Source of the DNA: a virus
DNA length: 32,122 nucleotides
IMG/VR virus record: IMGVR_UViG_3300031215_000045
Location: 1-32,122 of that record
Strand: one strand, 5' to 3'
The notes under the pieces are model-generated. The model worked only from the letters and a program-made list of their open reading frames with translations, ran no database searches and was not told the origin of the DNA. Shown one piece after another: positions 17,141-30,999 of this stretch. Every line of letters starts with the position of its first letter. The first letter of the stretch is position 1. The translations under genes were made by a program, and so were the position numbers.

Positions 17141-19546
17141 ATGCCAACACTAGGAGAAAGGTTAATAACCGCAGTTCAACAATTAGAAGTCGATTCTGCA
17201 CTGTTTAAACAGTTTACTCAAGGGGACGGTAGCGTAACTGTCACAACCGAAGGGGGCAGTTACCCATCACTTCAACGCTACATTGAGCAGGTGTTTAAAT
17301 GGCGAGGTTCATACGCTAGTGGCGAAGACTATGTGCTTGGGCAAACTTTCAAGGAAGGCTATGCGGCTTACCGTGTTACAACGAGTTTCACATCAACCAC
17401 TTTCGGGGATGATGCGGCAAACTATGAACTTTGGTTTGATTTCACCAATGTTGTGACCGACGCAGAGGACGCACGCGACGCTTCACAAGCGGTCCTTGAC
17501 GAATTTACAACCTTGTATCTTGGCGCTAAAGATACAGACCCCGCACTCGACAACGATGGGGACTCTCTCGCTGATGGCGCTATGTATTGGAACTCTACTT
17601 CCAATGTGCTCAAATTTTACGATCTTGAGAATACCATCTGGGCTGACCCTACTATAGACGGTCAATTGAGTGCTGATGCAGCCGCTGCGAGTGCAGCGGT
17701 AGCCAATGCAGCTACGGCTACCAAGGCGGATAGGGATATGCTAAACGTTGACAACAACAGCATCGGGACAGCTTTGTTGAGTACCCAAGTGATGGCGTTG
17801 CTTAATGCTATCAACACTAGCTCAGGTTACATCCGTGAGGGGCAGTTTGACGCATCGGGTGGTATCTACCCAGTTGATGCCACGGGCGACATGTCGAGCT
17901 ACACAGCTTCACGCTCAGCTTGGTATACGACAGTAGCTGGGGTAGTAGGCGGTCGCTCCCATGCGGTAGGCGATTGGGTCATTTGGAATGGGGGCGTTGC
18001 AGATGCCATCGGGTCTTGGGATAAAGATGAATCCCCAACTTTGAATATACCAGATAGCACCATAACTAAAGCAATGTTATCCGCTGTGGTGAAAAACTTA
18101 ATGCTCGAAGAAGAGCCTTATGCTAATTTTCATAAACTTTGGGAGGTCAACGGTAAAGCTCTGGGTGGAATTAAAACTTCGGGTGAGTGGTTTATCCCGC
18201 ACGCAGAGATTGCTGGGGCAAGCGAAACTACTGACAGCAGTTTCGCAAATGTGGTGCTAGCTTATCGGATTGAAGACAAAGTAGTTTTTTACATCCGCGA
18301 CAATGGCCAAGTGTTTATCCCACAATTAGTTTTAAATCTAAACATTAATGAGGATTTTAAATTTGTTGAACGGTTAGCGCTGGCTAACTCGAATTACCCT
18401 GATGCTGTGCTTAAAACTGGCGTGACACCTTTTACCATTACAGGCAAATTTCCTGTTGAACCATTGTTTGTTGTGTCATTTCAGGATGACGACGCTATCG
18501 ACAACCCCACTGATTCTGGACACGGCAAAAGTGGTGGTTTTTTCTCACGCGCCCGACCAGTCCTAAAACAGTTTGGGATGACCGCAAGCGAGGGGGTAAT
18601 CATGCGGCCACAGTGGGATGACACTCTATCGTCGCAAGCTTCGTATATACAATCTAGAGCTGTCCAGAATGTGGAAGGTTGGGAGCTGACTAACCACAGC
18701 CGAAACCATACTGTGCCATCAAGTTCAGGCTACGACCCTTACGAGGAGTGGGTGCGGTCGGTGGATGTGGCCAAGTCAGGCGGTATGCATTTTAAGAATG
18801 CTGTGTATCCTGGAGGCCACTCAAGTCATGAGATGCGTGAGGTGGTGAGGATTCGGCATCGCTGCGGTCAAGGAATCAATGACTTCGGGATGCAAAGCTC
18901 TTACTTTAACCGATCACCTTTAATCTCCTATAACCTAGTTCGCTACGTTCTGGACGCATCTGGGGGGTTTGGATCCAACCAAGTTGCGCCCCACGCTGAA
19001 CGTCAACTAGCTAGCTGGAAGTCCATGATTGATCAAGGGATCGCACTCAAAAACGCTGGGCAACGGGTATGGTTAATCCTAGAATCTCACTGGTATAAAG
19101 GAGAGTGGACAAACTGGAACACAGCGGGGGCTTTAGCTGACACCTATGCAGGGGGAGCCCTTCCAAGCGACCCGTCAACGTGGGGTGCGGGTGAAGCCGC
19201 TTACGATTCTGATTGGGTTATTCAAACCTTAAAAGACGGATCAGGGAATATCGTAACACCAACTGGCGAACTGACTAAGGCGGATTGTGCCGTTCCTGAT
19301 GGTTGGCGTCCGCAGAACGACTGTCGCCTGCACGACCTTTACGAACTGTGTGCATACATGCAGGCCGCGTCAGACGATGTGACGGTCGTAAACACCGACC
19401 GCGCAATGGATTTGATGGCTAACATCGCAGACGTTGGAGATTTTACAAATGGTGGATTAGGTCGAGGTGACCCTGAAGCTGTTTTAAACTATCCTCACTA
19501 CGTAGTGGGAGCAGACGGTAGGTCGTCATTCAACCCTTCACTGTAA
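17141..19546 (+). CDS. Tail fibre with NodB-like polysaccharide deacetylase domain
   Basis: An 801-residue protein. The N-terminal ~400 residues look like a fibre: SYASGEDYVLGQTFKEGYAA binding-type repeats, an Asp-rich DPALDNDGDSLADGAMYWNS block and an Ala-rich coiled coil near residue 185. From about residue 435 it has the order of a carbohydrate esterase 4/NodB fold: acidic motif 1 in FVVSFQDDDAID (D449-D451), motif 2 HSRNH (H519, H523), motif 3-like YPGGH (556-560), and a late His in ILESHW (H650). Such enzymes remove N- or O-acetyl groups from surface polysaccharides with a metal ion. It likely recognises and trims host capsule or exopolysaccharide during adsorption. Confidence 0.75.
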   Translation: MPTLGERLITAVQQLEVDSALFKQFTQGDGSVTVTTEGGSYPSLQRYIEQVFKWRGSYASGEDYVLGQTFKEGYAAYRVTTSFTSTTFGDDAANYELWFDFTNVVTDAEDARDASQAVLDEFTTLYLGAKDTDPALDNDGDSLADGAMYWNSTSNVLKFYDLENTIWADPTIDGQLSADAAAASAAVANAATATKADRDMLNVDNNSIGTALLSTQVMALLNAINTSSGYIREGQFDASGGIYPVDATGDMSSYTASRSAWYTTVAGVVGGRSHAVGDWVIWNGGVADAIGSWDKDESPTLNIPDSTITKAMLSAVVKNLMLEEEPYANFHKLWEVNGKALGGIKTSGEWFIPHAEIAGASETTDSSFANVVLAYRIEDKVVFYIRDNGQVFIPQLVLNLNINEDFKFVERLALANSNYPDAVLKTGVTPFTITGKFPVEPLFVVSFQDDDAIDNPTDSGHGKSGGFFSRARPVLKQFGMTASEGVIMRPQWDDTLSSQASYIQSRAVQNVEGWELTNHSRNHTVPSSSGYDPYEEWVRSVDVAKSGGMHFKNAVYPGGHSSHEMREVVRIRHRCGQGINDFGMQSSYFNRSPLISYNLVRYVLDASGGFGSNQVAPHAERQLASWKSMIDQGIALKNAGQRVWLILESHWYKGEWTNWNTAGALADTYAGGALPSDPSTWGAGEAAYDSDWVIQTLKDGSGNIVTPTGELTKADCAVPDGWRPQNDCRLHDLYELCAYMQAASDDVTVVNTDRAMDLMANIADVGDFTNGGLGRGDPEAVLNYPHYVVGADGRSSFNPSL

Positions 19547-22409: not shown

Positions 22410-22826
22410 ATGCTCCAATGGATAGGGGCGGACATGTGGCTATTCCACCCAGACAAGGAGTTTCCCTTTACTTTCACCCGTGGTAACGGTGAATTAATCA
22501 CGGTAGGCCAGTTTCGCGACAAGATGGTCTCGTTTGGCACCGATGGGGGTTCTATCCCAGATTACATTCGCGGCCTTCCCAACCTCTCTCGCTGGCACTA
22601 CGGCGCGGCATATCTTATCCATGATTGGCTGTGGCACATCCATAAACAGGGCTGGGGAGTATACACTTTTCAAGAGACAAATATCATTCTTTGCGAGGCT
22701 GTGAAGACTTTGATCGAAACAGGCTACGTCGGCCATGATACTTTTAAGGGCGATGCAGGCACGACGATGAATATTCATCGTGGCGTTTCCTCGTTTTTTG
22801 GGCATAAGATTTGGAGTAGGGAATAA
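22410..22826 (+). CDS. DUF1353 protein
   Basis: A 138-residue protein. The motif FGTDGGSIPDYI (residues 42-53) and YLIHDWLWHIH (69-79) define DUF1353, a phage-associated family of unknown function often found near lysis or tail genes; the conserved Asp and His suggest a metal or catalytic site. The longer reading from 22308 would encode the inverted repeat of the preceding terminator and has no domain-like sequence there, so I prefer ATG 22410. It ends two bases before the tail-tip gene. Confidence 0.75.
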   Translation: MLQWIGADMWLFHPDKEFPFTFTRGNGELITVGQFRDKMVSFGTDGGSIPDYIRGLPNLSRWHYGAAYLIHDWLWHIHKQGWGVYTFQETNIILCEAVKTLIETGYVGHDTFKGDAGTTMNIHRGVSSFFGHKIWSRE

Positions 22827-22827
22827 C

Positions 22828-23943
22828 ATGGCGTCTACCGCATATAAACAAGCATACAAAGAGGCACTAGCGGCAGCTAAGAGCAATGTGGTGATGCTGC
22901 ACACTCTTGAAATTACCAGCGAGCTAGCTTCTACGGAGGTAAAAGATATTGATGTCTGTTTTGTTGTAGATGATACGAGTTCTATGTCAAGTGAAATCAA
23001 TAGCCTGGTGACGGTGCTCCCTGCCGTTGTCACTAGCCTTTCAGAACGTTTTAGAACAGTGCGTGTCGGGCTGACTAGGTTTAAAGATGAAGACGACACT
23101 ACGGTAGTCAAAAACCTAACAACAGATGTCGCTTCTGTGCAAGCGGAGATGGCGGCTTTGGTGGCAAGCGGAGGCGGTGATGGTCCAGAGAATGGTTTCG
23201 GTGCTACCGTACAGGCAGCACAATCTATGGTGTGGTCTACCTCTTACAGCACCCGCCGTAACATTGTTTTGATCACCGATGCGGTAAGTTTTGAGACAGG
23301 CGACGAGGGGAATAGCGGCATAAATCATACTGCTGGTGCGACAGAACAGCAGGCCCTGGACGCTTTGACTTCTCGTAATATACGATTTATTCTAGGAGCC
23401 ACATCTTCTTTTTCTAACTACAACTACGGAAACTTGGTAGCTGATACAAATGGGGTAGTGGTGCCTAGATTTCATGTAGATCCACTAGAAGATTTAGTGG
23501 CTGCACTGAAGTTAGTTCTAGTGGTAGACCCTAACCTAGAGCCCATATACATTATACAAGCAAGGCAACCATATGAGCTGACTTTGGAGAACGGGGAATC
23601 CAAAGTATTCGAACCTGTTGCTTTCCGTTTCACACTACCTGGGCAAGATGACCAAGGTTTGCAAGACCTCAACATCACAATCGATAATGTCGACAAACGT
23701 ATAGGTGATTGGGTGGAAGCTGCAAGTGCTTATGATGCTCCCGCCTTAGTCCGTTACCGACCTTACCTAAGTACAGATCTGACCACACCCCAAATGGACC
23801 CTCCCTTGACTCTTACTCTCAGTGATATCAAGCGAACCTCTTTTGAGGTATCGGGTCGCGCCAGTGTCGCTGATATTGTCAATTTAAAGTTCCTCCGCTT
23901 GCTTTATTTGCGCAGTCGCTTCCCATCACTCGGCAACACTTAA
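22828..23943 (+). CDS. DUF1833 tail protein with nested vWA domain
   Basis: A 371-residue protein. Residues 1-33 (AYKQAYKEALAAAKSN then VVMLHTLEITSE) look like the start of DUF1833 tail proteins. Residues ~40-235 are a von Willebrand A domain with an intact metal-ion-dependent adhesion site: DxTxS (D48, T50, S52), GGGDGPE (115-121) and LITDA (T150, D151). From residue 238 the DUF1833 fold resumes (PIYIIQARQPYELT, IDNVDKRI) and ends SRFPSLGNT. The vWA domain therefore appears inserted into a tail-tip protein; vWA domains bind proteins through a metal ion, so adhesion to the host or to a virion partner is a reasonable guess. It is followed two bases later by the NlpC/P60 gene. Confidence 0.8.
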   Translation: MASTAYKQAYKEALAAAKSNVVMLHTLEITSELASTEVKDIDVCFVVDDTSSMSSEINSLVTVLPAVVTSLSERFRTVRVGLTRFKDEDDTTVVKNLTTDVASVQAEMAALVASGGGDGPENGFGATVQAAQSMVWSTSYSTRRNIVLITDAVSFETGDEGNSGINHTAGATEQQALDALTSRNIRFILGATSSFSNYNYGNLVADTNGVVVPRFHVDPLEDLVAALKLVLVVDPNLEPIYIIQARQPYELTLENGESKVFEPVAFRFTLPGQDDQGLQDLNITIDNVDKRIGDWVEAASAYDAPALVRYRPYLSTDLTTPQMDPPLTLTLSDIKRTSFEVSGRASVADIVNLKFLRLLYLRSRFPSLGNT

Positions 23944-27409: not shown

Positions 27410-27982
27410 CTACAGTCGAATTACATTACCAACTTCAAGTTCTGGGATATGCGTCACCATAATAAACTGAATGCCAAGTTCGCTTGAAAGTAAATTAAGC
27501 ATGGAGGCGACTCTTCCCCTGTATGTTTTAGATAGAAACTTAAAGGGCTCATCTAGTATTACTGCTCTCCTTAGCGGTGGTCTAGAAACCATTAAGCAAG
27601 AAATACGCAAGGCAAAGGCTGCTATATCAACCGCACCACCACCACTCCCCGCCATAGGGTCAACTTCTTCCCCATTACGGATGAAGACAAGCTTTGCTTC
27701 TGTTTTTCCCCGTTTTTGTTCAAAGATAATACTAAACTCGTAAGCTTCTTCCTCAAATATAGTTTGCAGGCATTTAGTGACAATACTACTTATCTTCTTA
27801 TGCGCTTTCTCTTGGACTATGGTGGCAACGGTCTGTGCAATGGCATTAGCATCATCCGCCCACTCTACTTTTAGTGCAGTTTCTTCTAAGAACTCTTGTT
27901 CACGCTTTACATCACGTTTAGCCAACAAAAAGTCTTCATAGAGATTTTCTACAATTTCGCTTATATCAGATACCGAGCTCAT
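27410..27982 (-). CDS. Rad50/SbcC-like ATPase, C-terminal lobe
   Basis: A 190-residue protein with the C-terminal half of an SMC/Rad50 ATPase: a short helical start, a signature-like loop GSGGGAVDIAAFALR (112-126), Walker B AVILDEP (D144/E145), D-loop FKFLS and H-loop VTH (H178). It has no Walker A. The matching N-terminal lobe with Walker A is encoded separately at 29573-30619 in the same operon, so two chains probably assemble into one ATPase head. Last gene of the operon; its start overlaps the coiled-coil gene by 17 bases. Confidence 0.85.
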   Translation of the reverse strand: MSSVSDISEIVENLYEDFLLAKRDVKREQEFLEETALKVEWADDANAIAQTVATIVQEKAHKKISSIVTKCLQTIFEEEAYEFSIIFEQKRGKTEAKLVFIRNGEEVDPMAGSGGGAVDIAAFALRISCLMVSRPPLRRAVILDEPFKFLSKTYRGRVASMLNLLSSELGIQFIMVTHIPELEVGNVIRL

Positions 27983-28211
27983 CTTTGTATTTTTCTTGGA
28001 ATGCTTGTGATTTTTCGTTAAAGGCCTCTTCTGCCTTGTCCCGCTCTTTTTCTTTTGTTTTTAATAGGGCTTTGGCCTCTTTAGCAGTCTTAACGCCAAA
28101 TGTTTTCTTGAGGTCTTGGAGGGCATTGCTGTAAGCCCCTTTAGCGTTGTCAACTTCGGATTGCTTTGTAGCAATTTTTTCTTTTAGTTTATTGAATTGT
28201 TCTATCTTCAT
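27966..28211 (-). CDS. Coiled-coil protein beside Rad50 C-lobe
   Basis: An 81-residue, Lys/Glu/Ala-rich, almost wholly helical protein (FNKLKEKIATKQSEVDNAK and LLKTKEKERDKAEEAF). It has no enzymatic motif. It lies directly before, and overlaps, the Rad50 C-lobe gene, where a full-length Rad50 would have its returning coiled coil. It may supply that segment as a separate chain, or be an unrelated helical adaptor. Its ATG overlaps the TGA of the DUF3310 gene. Confidence 0.6.
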   Translation of the reverse strand: MKIEQFNKLKEKIATKQSEVDNAKGAYSNALQDLKKTFGVKTAKEAKALLKTKEKERDKAEEAFNEKSQAFQEKYKDELGI

Positions 28212-28648
28212 AATGCTCGTAATAAGTATGTTCTTGCTCTGCGTAAAAATGCTTTTGTTGCCCCGTGCCTATGGCATCTTATAAGGGCATGAATCGCTGT
28301 TTTGATGTTTTGGTCCTTAAACCCACCAACAATGCTAGAGCAATTATCTTTCAAGAAAAATGCAACCTCTGTTGGCACTTGTATTTGAATAACTTGCGCA
28401 TTCAACATAGGGTATTCTTTTGGCAAACGGCTTCGCTGCCATTCAGCATCTTCATTTAAGTGGCGGTTGATATACCAAATAGCTTTGTTAATGTCTTGGG
28501 TTGCTAGGTCTTTTTTAAGCCCCGCCCTCCATACATATTTAATTGCATTACCAACATTGAAACCAAACCATTGACAAACGTCGATACATTCAATTCCGCT
28601 CTTGTGCTGGTTGTAGTGTGTGGGGTTACTTACTTGTTCTGTTTTCAT
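28208..28648 (-). CDS. DUF3310 protein
   Basis: A 146-residue protein. The N-terminal block NPTHYNQHKSGIECIDVCQW and FNVGNAIKYVWRAGLKKD followed by INKAIWYINRHL is the signature of DUF3310, a small phage family sometimes annotated as nucleotide kinase-like but of unproven function. The C-terminal ~75 residues are additional and unassigned. It lies between the Mre11 and coiled-coil genes with ATGA overlaps on both sides. Confidence 0.8.
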   Translation of the reverse strand: MKTEQVSNPTHYNQHKSGIECIDVCQWFGFNVGNAIKYVWRAGLKKDLATQDINKAIWYINRHLNEDAEWQRSRLPKEYPMLNAQVIQIQVPTEVAFFLKDNCSSIVGGFKDQNIKTAIHALIRCHRHGATKAFLRRARTYLLRAL

Positions 28649-29583
28649 TTATTTTCTGTTATGTCTAGTAGTATTTTTTTGACGTGTTTATTTACTTTTT
28701 TATCTTTGATGTATTTAATTAAAATTTCTACAAAATCTAGGCCGTTGCTTTCTGCACTTTCAAGCTCTTCTATAAAACCGCTAACGTCAACACCATCAAT
28801 CTCCCCTACCATATCGCGCAGGGTGTGTGGGTTGATAAAAACATCCTTTTCGCAGTCTAGGTAAACTCTTTCTATGCTACCATCATTAAAAAGCAAACCC
28901 ATTGATGGCGTGGAGTTTATTTCGTCTGATTTGCGCCTCATGAAACCGCCATTGTTCAATATAGTGGTTGCACCGCTTTTTATCAAGAAGCCTTTGTGGT
29001 TATCTCCAAATAAAGCGGCATCGTACCCTTTAAGTTTCTTTTTGTAAGCTACGGCATTTTGTGATTTAGAAGCCCCCGTGTAGGTGTTCTCTTTGTGCCA
29101 GCAGTAAGCGTGAATTACAGCTAAGTGAATTACGCCTTTTGCAAACGCGGAACTTGTTTGAGGCTTTATGGGAAAACCCCATGGAAATCCATGTAAAACC
29201 AATTTACTCTCTTTTACATAAATAGGCTTGTCAGGTTCTACCAGTTTAATGCACCCCCCTTTAACAAGAACTCCAAAGGCACTACCGTCCATTGCATCAT
29301 AGTCATGGTATGGTAGGTCGTGCTGCCCAGGAATAGCGTAGTCATCTTTTAAGTAGTCCCATGCCATATTTATTAAGGTGCTGGATTCTTTTTCTCGTGA
29401 TTTGTCAAATATGTCACCACCTATAATTCCAGGTATTGAATGCCGTTGTTTGAGATCAGCCCACTGTTGTAGGTAGGACTCTTGCCTACCAAGCCAATTT
29501 TTTTCATTGCTACGGGCAATGGGGGGAGTGGCTGATAAGTGAATATCACTTACTAGGGATGCAATTGGTTTTTTAGTGCTCAT
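28645..29583 (-). CDS. Mre11/SbcD-like nuclease
   Basis: A 312-residue calcineurin-like metallophosphoesterase. Metal-binding motifs are SDIHLS (D13, H15), GGDIFD (D57), GQHD (86-89, with Gln where many families have Asn), a VIHAYCW His and FGDNHKG. This is the order of the Mre11 nuclease that works with Rad50 on DNA ends. The genes on either side encode the two lobes of a Rad50-like ATPase, strongly supporting the assignment. Likely roles are recombination, replication-end processing or host DNA degradation. It overlaps both neighbours. Confidence 0.85.
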   Translation of the reverse strand: MSTKKPIASLVSDIHLSATPPIARSNEKNWLGRQESYLQQWADLKQRHSIPGIIGGDIFDKSREKESSTLINMAWDYLKDDYAIPGQHDLPYHDYDAMDGSAFGVLVKGGCIKLVEPDKPIYVKESKLVLHGFPWGFPIKPQTSSAFAKGVIHLAVIHAYCWHKENTYTGASKSQNAVAYKKKLKGYDAALFGDNHKGFLIKSGATTILNNGGFMRRKSDEINSTPSMGLLFNDGSIERVYLDCEKDVFINPHTLRDMVGEIDGVDVSGFIEELESAESNGLDFVEILIKYIKDKKVNKHVKKILLDITENK

Positions 29584-30619
29584 GTTCTACTTCGCTTCCG
29601 CAAAGGGGGCATACTCCCTTTGAATTAAGTTTTAACTCTTCTTTAAGTTCTTCTAGTATTTGTTGTTTTTCTGTGATAGTTTGTTTTAGGGTTTCACATG
29701 ATTGTATGCAATCCCCTAGCCTCGCGCACTGTTCTTTACTTTCTTTGTAAGCTATCAACACGTCGCCCAGCAAGGTGCAGCTTTTTTGCATCTGCTTTAC
29801 CACGTCCTCTTGTTTGAGTGTTTCCTGTAAATCATGCAAATCATCGAGCTTTTCTTCTAATTTCAAGCAGGTTTTGTTTAGGGCTACCAGCCCCTCGCCT
29901 AGCTCTACTACAATACCGCCGCCCTGCACTACCGATCCGGCGCGTTTGCCCCTCTCTCGGTGCCTATGTAGCTGCCCTATGCCCTCGGCTAATTGTAGGG
30001 CATCCTGGCGGGTAGTCAACATAACCCCCTCGGCCTCGAGCACTACGTCCCACTTTTCTTTAACAACCTCAATAAAGCCTAAATCATCTAAAGCTTCCTT
30101 TGCTTTTAGTAACCGTCCTTCTGTTACAGCAAATTCACTCTTACGCCTTTTTAGAAGTGAGTGGGTTTCTTTAAGGGTTACATCAATTACGCCTAGGTCA
30201 ATTATTTCGTTCAATTGCCTACTAACCTCCCCCGCACTCTCACCAAACCAATATTCATTGTCATGCTGTTGGTGGATGTTTATTTTATTGATGCACAAAA
30301 AGTCTTGAATGGGATCAGGTACCTTAGCCCCAAAAGCCTCAAATAATTCATCGCCTAGTTGGTATTGGTTTTCTTTGCTACTTTTCTTTCTTGTTAGGGT
30401 TACTTTTTCTGAAAGCCTTATTTTAACCTCTACCTCATCAGTGCCCCATGCCTTGAACCCGATGCCTCCAGGTGTATTTCTCAAGCACCATACTAAAGAT
30501 CTTACAATAGAGGATTTTCCACAATCTGTGGGTCCCACTATTACGTTGACACCTTTAGTAAAAGACAGTTTTAGGTTTTTATGCTTTTGAAAGTTTTTTA
30601 TTTTTGCACCTAATATCAT
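29573..30619 (-). CDS. Rad50/SbcC-like ATPase, N-terminal lobe with zinc hook
   Basis: A 348-residue protein. Walker A GPTDCGKS lies at residues 29-36, a Q-loop-like INIHQQHDNEYWF near 113-125, then a long coiled coil to about 330, and CPLC at 337-340, the zinc-hook motif that normally sits at the apex of the Rad50 coiled coil. The chain ends there, so the returning coiled coil and the C-lobe are absent and are instead encoded downstream. The upstream gene overlaps by ATGA and the Mre11 gene overlaps its end by 11 bases. Confidence 0.85.
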   Translation of the reverse strand: MILGAKIKNFQKHKNLKLSFTKGVNVIVGPTDCGKSSIVRSLVWCLRNTPGGIGFKAWGTDEVEVKIRLSEKVTLTRKKSSKENQYQLGDELFEAFGAKVPDPIQDFLCINKINIHQQHDNEYWFGESAGEVSRQLNEIIDLGVIDVTLKETHSLLKRRKSEFAVTEGRLLKAKEALDDLGFIEVVKEKWDVVLEAEGVMLTTRQDALQLAEGIGQLHRHRERGKRAGSVVQGGGIVVELGEGLVALNKTCLKLEEKLDDLHDLQETLKQEDVVKQMQKSCTLLGDVLIAYKESKEQCARLGDCIQSCETLKQTITEKQQILEELKEELKLNSKGVCPLCGSEVEHEH

Positions 30620-30999
30620 TTTGGTTTACTCCAGATTAAATCATCGTTTTCTTCTTCAAGCGTACTTATATTTTTTCTTATGTATTTGTGTAGTTTGTCA
30701 GTCACTTTGTGTTGTAAATGGCTATGCCATAGCCAATGCAGGTAATCGGCAGGGACGTCTTGTAGCATTTTGCCTTCATACTTTCCAAAGTCTATTATAC
30801 TTGTGTCTGTCAAATCCTCGCTTGTAGGGGCTTGTATGAGTTTTTCTCCTAGCTCCGCAAAATCTATTTTTGTGCATAAAGCATTCAAGCCCATAAGTAT
30901 GTCTTGGGATACTGTCGAGTCATCTGAAAACACTACAGTGATCCTTTTACGTTTACTGTCTTGCTTATGGGTTTTTACGTATATGTCTTTAATGTGCAT
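30616..30999 (-). CDS. DUF3820-like protein
   Basis: A 127-residue protein. IIDFGKYEGKMLQDVPADYLHWLW (about residues 68-91) is the small DUF3820/exonuclease-associated motif, in which a FGKYxGxxxxDVPxDYLxWL stretch is followed by a helix. It occurs alone in phage proteins and fused to exonucleases, suggesting a nucleic-acid-related role. The N-terminal half is beta-rich and unassigned. Coupled to the Rad50 N-lobe gene by ATGA. Confidence 0.7.
   Translation of the reverse strand: MHIKDIYVKTHKQDSKRKRITVVFSDDSTVSQDILMGLNALCTKIDFAELGEKLIQAPTSEDLTDTSIIDFGKYEGKMLQDVPADYLHWLWHSHLQHKVTDKLHKYIRKNISTLEEENDDLIWSKPK

Follow-up and report, generated by a model that had tools for sequence, protein, structure and literature searches.

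Rad50 is regarded as a single chain, in which an out-and-back coil links both halves of the ATPase head. The locus described here raises the question of whether the two halves can instead be supplied by separate polypeptides. It lies in the virus record IMGVR_UViG_3300031215_000045, of which the whole 32,122-nucleotide sequence (the window) was analysed. An earlier note, made by a model from the sequence alone, had read positions 27,410 to 30,619 as a Rad50/SbcC ATPase whose N- and C-lobes are separate genes of one operon, placed around a nuclease gene, a DUF3310 gene and a gene for an 81-residue coiled-coil protein (here called H). All five open reading frames (ORFs) were confirmed, and are given here in their order of transcription.

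29573..30619 (-), N-lobe chain of the split Rad50, 348 residues; Walker A, Q-loop, helical arm and CPLC; phrog_16465, Pfam AAA_23
28645..29583 (-), Mre11/SbcD-like nuclease, 312 residues; profile match to P. furiosus Mre11 (1ii7), E 8e-13
28208..28648 (-), DUF3310 protein, 146 residues; between the nuclease and coil genes in the window
27966..28211 (-), helical protein H, 81 residues; encoded just before the C-lobe gene, two amphipathic helices of ~35 residues
27410..27982 (-), C-lobe chain of the split Rad50, 190 residues; lead-in helix of ~40 residues, signature variant, Walker B and H-loop; phrog_15167

It is concluded that the locus very probably encodes a phage Mre11-Rad50 complex of the SbcCD type for DNA-end processing, in which the head of the ATP-binding cassette (ABC) ATPase is formed from two polypeptides.

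The two lobes and the nuclease

All three proteins have their best PDB profile matches in archaeal Mre11-Rad50, from Pyrococcus furiosus and Methanocaldococcus jannaschii. A profile of 49 N chains gave Rad50 of M. jannaschii as its top match (6.5e-15), and a profile of 49 C chains gave Rad50 of P. furiosus (3.7e-16), followed by SMC (1e-8) and ABC transporters (1e-7). An origin of the C-lobe in another ATPase family, which the earlier note had named as a possible objection, is ruled out, as Rad50 is well ahead of SMC. The AlphaFold model of the window N chain has a mean predicted local distance difference test score (pLDDT) of 87, and was matched by Foldseek to the N-lobe chains of P. furiosus Rad50 (E 1.5e-6); by VIA Z, Rad50 (1f2u_C, 14.2) and an SMC N-lobe (14.1) were tied. 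The nuclease has, by profile match, the calcineurin-like fold and the seven metal-ligand positions of Mre11/SbcD, all of them occupied by metal-capable residues (D13, H15, D57, Q/N87, H158, D194, H196). The motifs of the three proteins are located as follows.

30509..30535 (-), Walker A of the N chain, GPTDCGKSS, residues 29-37; G29, G34 and K35 invariant in 82 homologues
30266..30268 (-), Q-loop glutamine of the N chain, Q118; invariant in 82 homologues
29612..30181 (-), helical arm of the N chain, residues 147-336; 47-residue tandem periodicity throughout the family
29600..29611 (-), CPLC of the N chain, residues 337-340, may be half of a zinc hook; neither cysteine varies in the alignment of 82 rows
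29317..29328 (-), nuclease metal motif GQHD (canonical GNHD); Q in 39 and N in 21 of 61 homologues
28996..29007 (-), nuclease metal motif GDNH (canonical GHxH); D in 58 and H in 3 of 61 homologues
27635..27646 (-), signature variant of the C chain, SGGG, residues 113-116 (canonical LSGGE)
27548..27559 (-), end of Walker B of the C chain, ILDE, residues 142-145, within VILDE; conserved in the family
27449..27451 (-), H-loop histidine of the C chain, H178, within VTH; conserved in the family

Walker A, the Q-loop, Walker B, the H-loop and the CxxC pair are common to the phage family and archaeal Mre11-Rad50. The phage family differs in having the lobes on two natural chains, a short C-chain lead-in, a CxxC near the chain end, SGGG in place of LSGGE, and Q and D at two Mre11 metal positions. 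There is a structural precedent for the division: P. furiosus Rad50 was cut in two for structural work, and in 1f2u, 1ii8 and 3qkr each lobe is a chain of its own.

The cysteine pair, which may form half of a zinc hook, is close to the end of the N chain: the CxxC is 6-24 residues from the end across the family, and 12 residues from it in the window. Of 58 non-redundant N chains, 57 retain both CPxC cysteines. Two N chains (L003:4001-5053 and L040:4835-5905) have no CxxC, indicating that the pair can be lost.

Occurrence in other viruses

Relatives were drawn from viral contigs and annotated phages, which were scanned with iterated hidden Markov models. The models for the four genes (N, nuclease, H and C) recover the same set in more than 100 viral loci, far above chance. 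Gene context was taken from the 101 loci in which 5.5 kb or more precede the C gene; they represent 87 distinct C sequences. The N and nuclease genes are on the same strand as C in all 101, and an H gene is present in 97. One of the four loci with no H match, Mvi-JY20, has a 94-residue helix-turn-helix ORF at the position of H.

The search for the same gene neighbourhood, which the earlier note had proposed, returned the order N-M-H-C (M being the nuclease) in 95 viral loci, and a second order, N-H-C-M, typified by Bacillus phage vB_BboS-125, in 29; among the loci so counted, a few are duplicates or overlap one another. Across 149 loci no ORF carries both lobes. Median dN/dS values for the N, nuclease, H and C genes are 0.05-0.16 (from few pairs, 2 to 24), which suggests purifying selection on all four. 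Conserved gene set, missing fused version and low dN/dS together bear out the view that this is a working multi-chain Rad50, not a decaying one.

The split Rad50 is widespread in environmental viral contigs, and rare among isolated phages. A single C-lobe pattern retrieved 204 viral relatives; the alignment of N chains contained no segment conserved well enough to scan viral contigs with. A search of a genome collection gave only three matches, all in metagenome-assembled genomes and possibly on viral contigs.

The arm and the small protein H

The length of the arm, measured from the end of the N-lobe to CPxC, is 139-343 residues, with classes near 142, 189, 238, 296 and 342. In all five classes the offset with the strongest self-similarity is 47 residues (z 7.3, 15.6, 8.7, 23.5 and 25.7), from which the arms appear to differ by whole repeats. 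The related loci L032 and L035, with arms of 146 and 193 residues, differ by exactly 47. In the AlphaFold model of the window N chain (predicted template modelling score, pTM, 0.46), the arm is predicted as helices 143-179, 182-269 and 271-333 (37, 88 and 63 residues), with breaks between them. Helix 143-179 would extend the outgoing helix of Rad50 and then break; pTM is low, and the path beyond is not fixed by the model. The N chain of vB_BboS-125 is similarly predicted to have helices of 38, 53, 44 and 152 residues with breaks (pTM 0.36). A mutual-information test for antiparallel packing within the arm drew on ~52 effective sequences.

H is ~80 residues long (median 81), and the lead-in of the C chain ~60 (median 64 to the reference column). 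The heptads of H form two runs of a/d hydrophobics, each of ~35 residues; between them, at residues 39-42, is a G..S/T turn. Because its length is constant across the arm classes and its heptads are interrupted by this turn, H is more likely to be a short helical hairpin subunit than a long return strand. We also asked whether H might be an arm repeat that has strayed, but hhalign gave a probability of only 11% against N and 9% against C, and register tests were no better than the heptad background. Matches to H at E<1e-5 lie directly upstream of C in 131 cases and elsewhere in 2. The single clear exception to the gene order is L118:8942-9184, where the H gene comes after the C-lobe gene.

Competing explanations and a proposed role

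Could the two lobe genes be pieces of a single Rad50 that an error of sequencing or assembly has divided, or that programmed frameshifting joins? The gene overlaps of 11 and 17 nucleotides in the window would fit such an origin, but in 95 loci the nuclease gene separates the lobes, there are two gene orders, and the single-chain relatives that the earlier note thought might expose an assembly error did not appear in the 149 loci. The lobes are on opposite strands and more than 100 kb apart in the annotated, complete and circular genome of Tunturiibacter phage Tunturi_5 (308,711 bp): position 19,071 (+) for the C-lobe, 126,955-128,397 (-) for the single N-lobe. Microbacterium phage Magritte, likewise annotated and complete, has its C gene at 284, its one N gene at 93,835 and the nuclease gene at 119,657. 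These two arrangements exclude frameshift fusion or assembly error for the family, and the explanation is extremely improbable. Such distances, and the separate genes themselves, could also mean that the N and C chains work in two separate ATPase assemblies, without ever sharing a head. This would require stand-alone half-ATPases. Against it, each chain holds only half of the ATP site, Rad50 is the best relative of both chains, they occur together in 101 of 101 context loci, and each of five phage genomes has only one N-lobe gene. We consider separate assemblies very unlikely.

A more serious alternative, although still an unlikely one, takes the 81-residue protein to be a separated return strand, so that the N arm, H and the C lead-in rebuild the canonical Rad50 arm. 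The earlier note had suggested this role. H is coiled-coil-like and conserved, and its gene directly precedes that of the C-lobe, the place expected for a return coil; H and the C lead-in together (~120-145 residues) roughly match the shortest arms (~140 residues). However, the arm ranges over 139-343 residues with no compensating change in H plus lead-in (Spearman -0.11, p 0.28), and the turn at residues 39-42 breaks the heptads of H; the return-coil role is not borne out. A different kind of alternative is that the module is an anti-host or anti-phage effector of the Lamassu kind, and not recombination machinery. Lamassu LmuB is itself Rad50-like, the N chain matches the PADLOC models for LmuB (9.7e-13), and both lobes match mad3. 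The LmuB models nevertheless describe a single chain with both lobes, the Mre11-like nuclease had no match among the PADLOC models, and the module adjoins a UvsX-like recombinase gene and those of a clamp loader, a 5'-3' exonuclease and ribonucleotide reductase. It is improbable that the module is an effector.

Some observations do weigh against the main reading, a two-chain Mre11-Rad50 complex. The arm is unlike a canonical antiparallel coiled coil, whose outgoing and return strands match, in that its length varies while the return elements are constant, and it is built of 47-residue repeats. Walker A, the Q-loop, CPLC, Walker B and the H-loop are intact, as the earlier note had stated for the motifs in general, but the ABC signature is altered throughout the family: aligned without gaps to P. 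furiosus Rad50, LSGGE reads SGGGA, so that the usual serine is glycine and a serine is shifted by one. The GGG is conserved family-wide. Two of the seven Mre11 metal ligands are likewise replaced across the family (mostly Asn to Gln, and nearly always His to Asp), at positions corresponding to Asn84 and His206 of P. furiosus Mre11. The altered signature and metal ligands suggest that activity may differ from that of canonical Mre11-Rad50. Finally, single-sequence Pfam scores for the C-lobe and nuclease of the window are under the gathering cut-offs.

In the proposed two-chain Mre11-Rad50, Walker A, the Q-loop, the arm of 47-residue repeats and the CPxC near the C-terminus are on the N chain, while the C chain has the signature variant, Walker B and the H-loop after a short lead-in helix. 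The two lobes would join without a covalent link into one head. Two such heads would close on ATP around DNA, gating the Mre11-type nuclease at the base of the arm, and H may be a subunit folded as a helical hairpin, placed at the base of the arm and the lead-in of the C chain. The complex would then resect DNA ends for a UvsX/RecA-like recombinase, in the manner of T4 gp46/gp47.

T4 gp46/gp47 process DNA ends for recombination, and because of this analogy the phage complex probably resects ends for recombination-dependent replication. Of the 88 loci where N is preceded by 4 kb or more, 67 have a co-oriented RecA/UvsX-like gene no more than ~6 kb upstream; the window record ends too soon to be counted here. 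Clamp-loader, 5'-3' exonuclease and ribonucleotide reductase genes are among the other neighbours, and vB_BboS-125 also has genes for a resolvase and a UvsW-type helicase nearby.

We tentatively extend this to a model in which the arm is a rod of 47-residue repeats made by the N chain only, evolving by whole repeats and ending in a half-hook, the C-lobe is freed as a separate subunit, and Rad50 has, at the base of its arm, an obligatory third subunit in the conserved ~80-residue hairpin. If the widespread phage family does work as a two-chain Rad50 with a small partner, whether or not this model of the arm is right, covalent linkage through the coil would be shown to be dispensable. Arm and head would be separable experimentally, giving compact, separately expressible parts for structural work, and two orphan phage families and one unnamed small family would be united as one identifiable recombination complex.

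T4 gp46/gp47 and phage SbcC/SbcD (phrog_77) are likewise phage Rad50/Mre11 pairs in a recombination and replication setting with UvsX. In T4-type SbcC a single chain carries both lobes (PMC5105663, where the T4 phenotype is also summarised), whereas in the split family N and C are separate and an extra protein of ~80 residues is conserved. LmuB has a similar Rad50-like N-lobe and arm, but in a single chain and a defence context. In PHROGs the N chains are phrog_16465 ("exonuclease") and the C chains phrog_15167 ("ATPase"), with 49 of 49 aligned members matching in each; the two are kept apart, and are not noted as halves of one enzyme. As an observation in its own right, a record named Listeria phage LM 4-11-1 (unverified) encodes a 1186-residue single-chain SbcC-like protein (L158:2818-6378); the record may be host DNA that was entered as a phage.

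vB_BboS-125 is an isolate with the whole set: an N chain of 471 residues, H of 78, a C chain of 211 (gp32, gp34 and gp35) and a nuclease of 326. It differs from the window in its order N-H-C-M, in an AP2-domain gene between N and H, and in its longer arm (297 residues). The nuclease gene (~22423-23403; L001:6851-7831) is present although unannotated in the RefSeq record, and the genome paper does not mention SbcC or Rad50 (PMC6375668). We found no description of a Rad50/SbcC split between genes in the open-licence literature, subscription papers and preprints being outside the search. A jumbo-phage overview reports split DNA polymerase III and RNA polymerase, and in the passages found no split SbcC. 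The component families are known; what appears to be undescribed is the split, the arm of repeats and the conserved small partner.

The window is a 32 kb virus record whose plus strand encodes terminase, portal, head and tail genes; scans of it for Rfam families and tRNAs gave no matches. One further gene is co-oriented with the operon.

30616..30999 (-), gene upstream of the N chain, 127 residues; short ExoX-like C-terminal/QSregVF_b match, ATGA overlap with the N chain

This gene is probably part of the same operon as the N chain. The ATGA junctions described in the earlier note are present here and at nuclease/DUF3310 and DUF3310/H; N and the nuclease overlap instead by 11 nucleotides, and H and C by 17. 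The 127-residue gene and DUF3310 are both outside the conserved gene set, and the ExoX-like match of the former is possibly a tail that it shares with DnaQ-like exonucleases. In another locus (L035:4029-6371), genes for a ribose-phosphate pyrophosphokinase-like protein and a nicotinamide phosphoribosyltransferase lie between the N-lobe and nuclease genes, a pair that resembles a phage pathway for rebuilding NAD+ (anti-defence).

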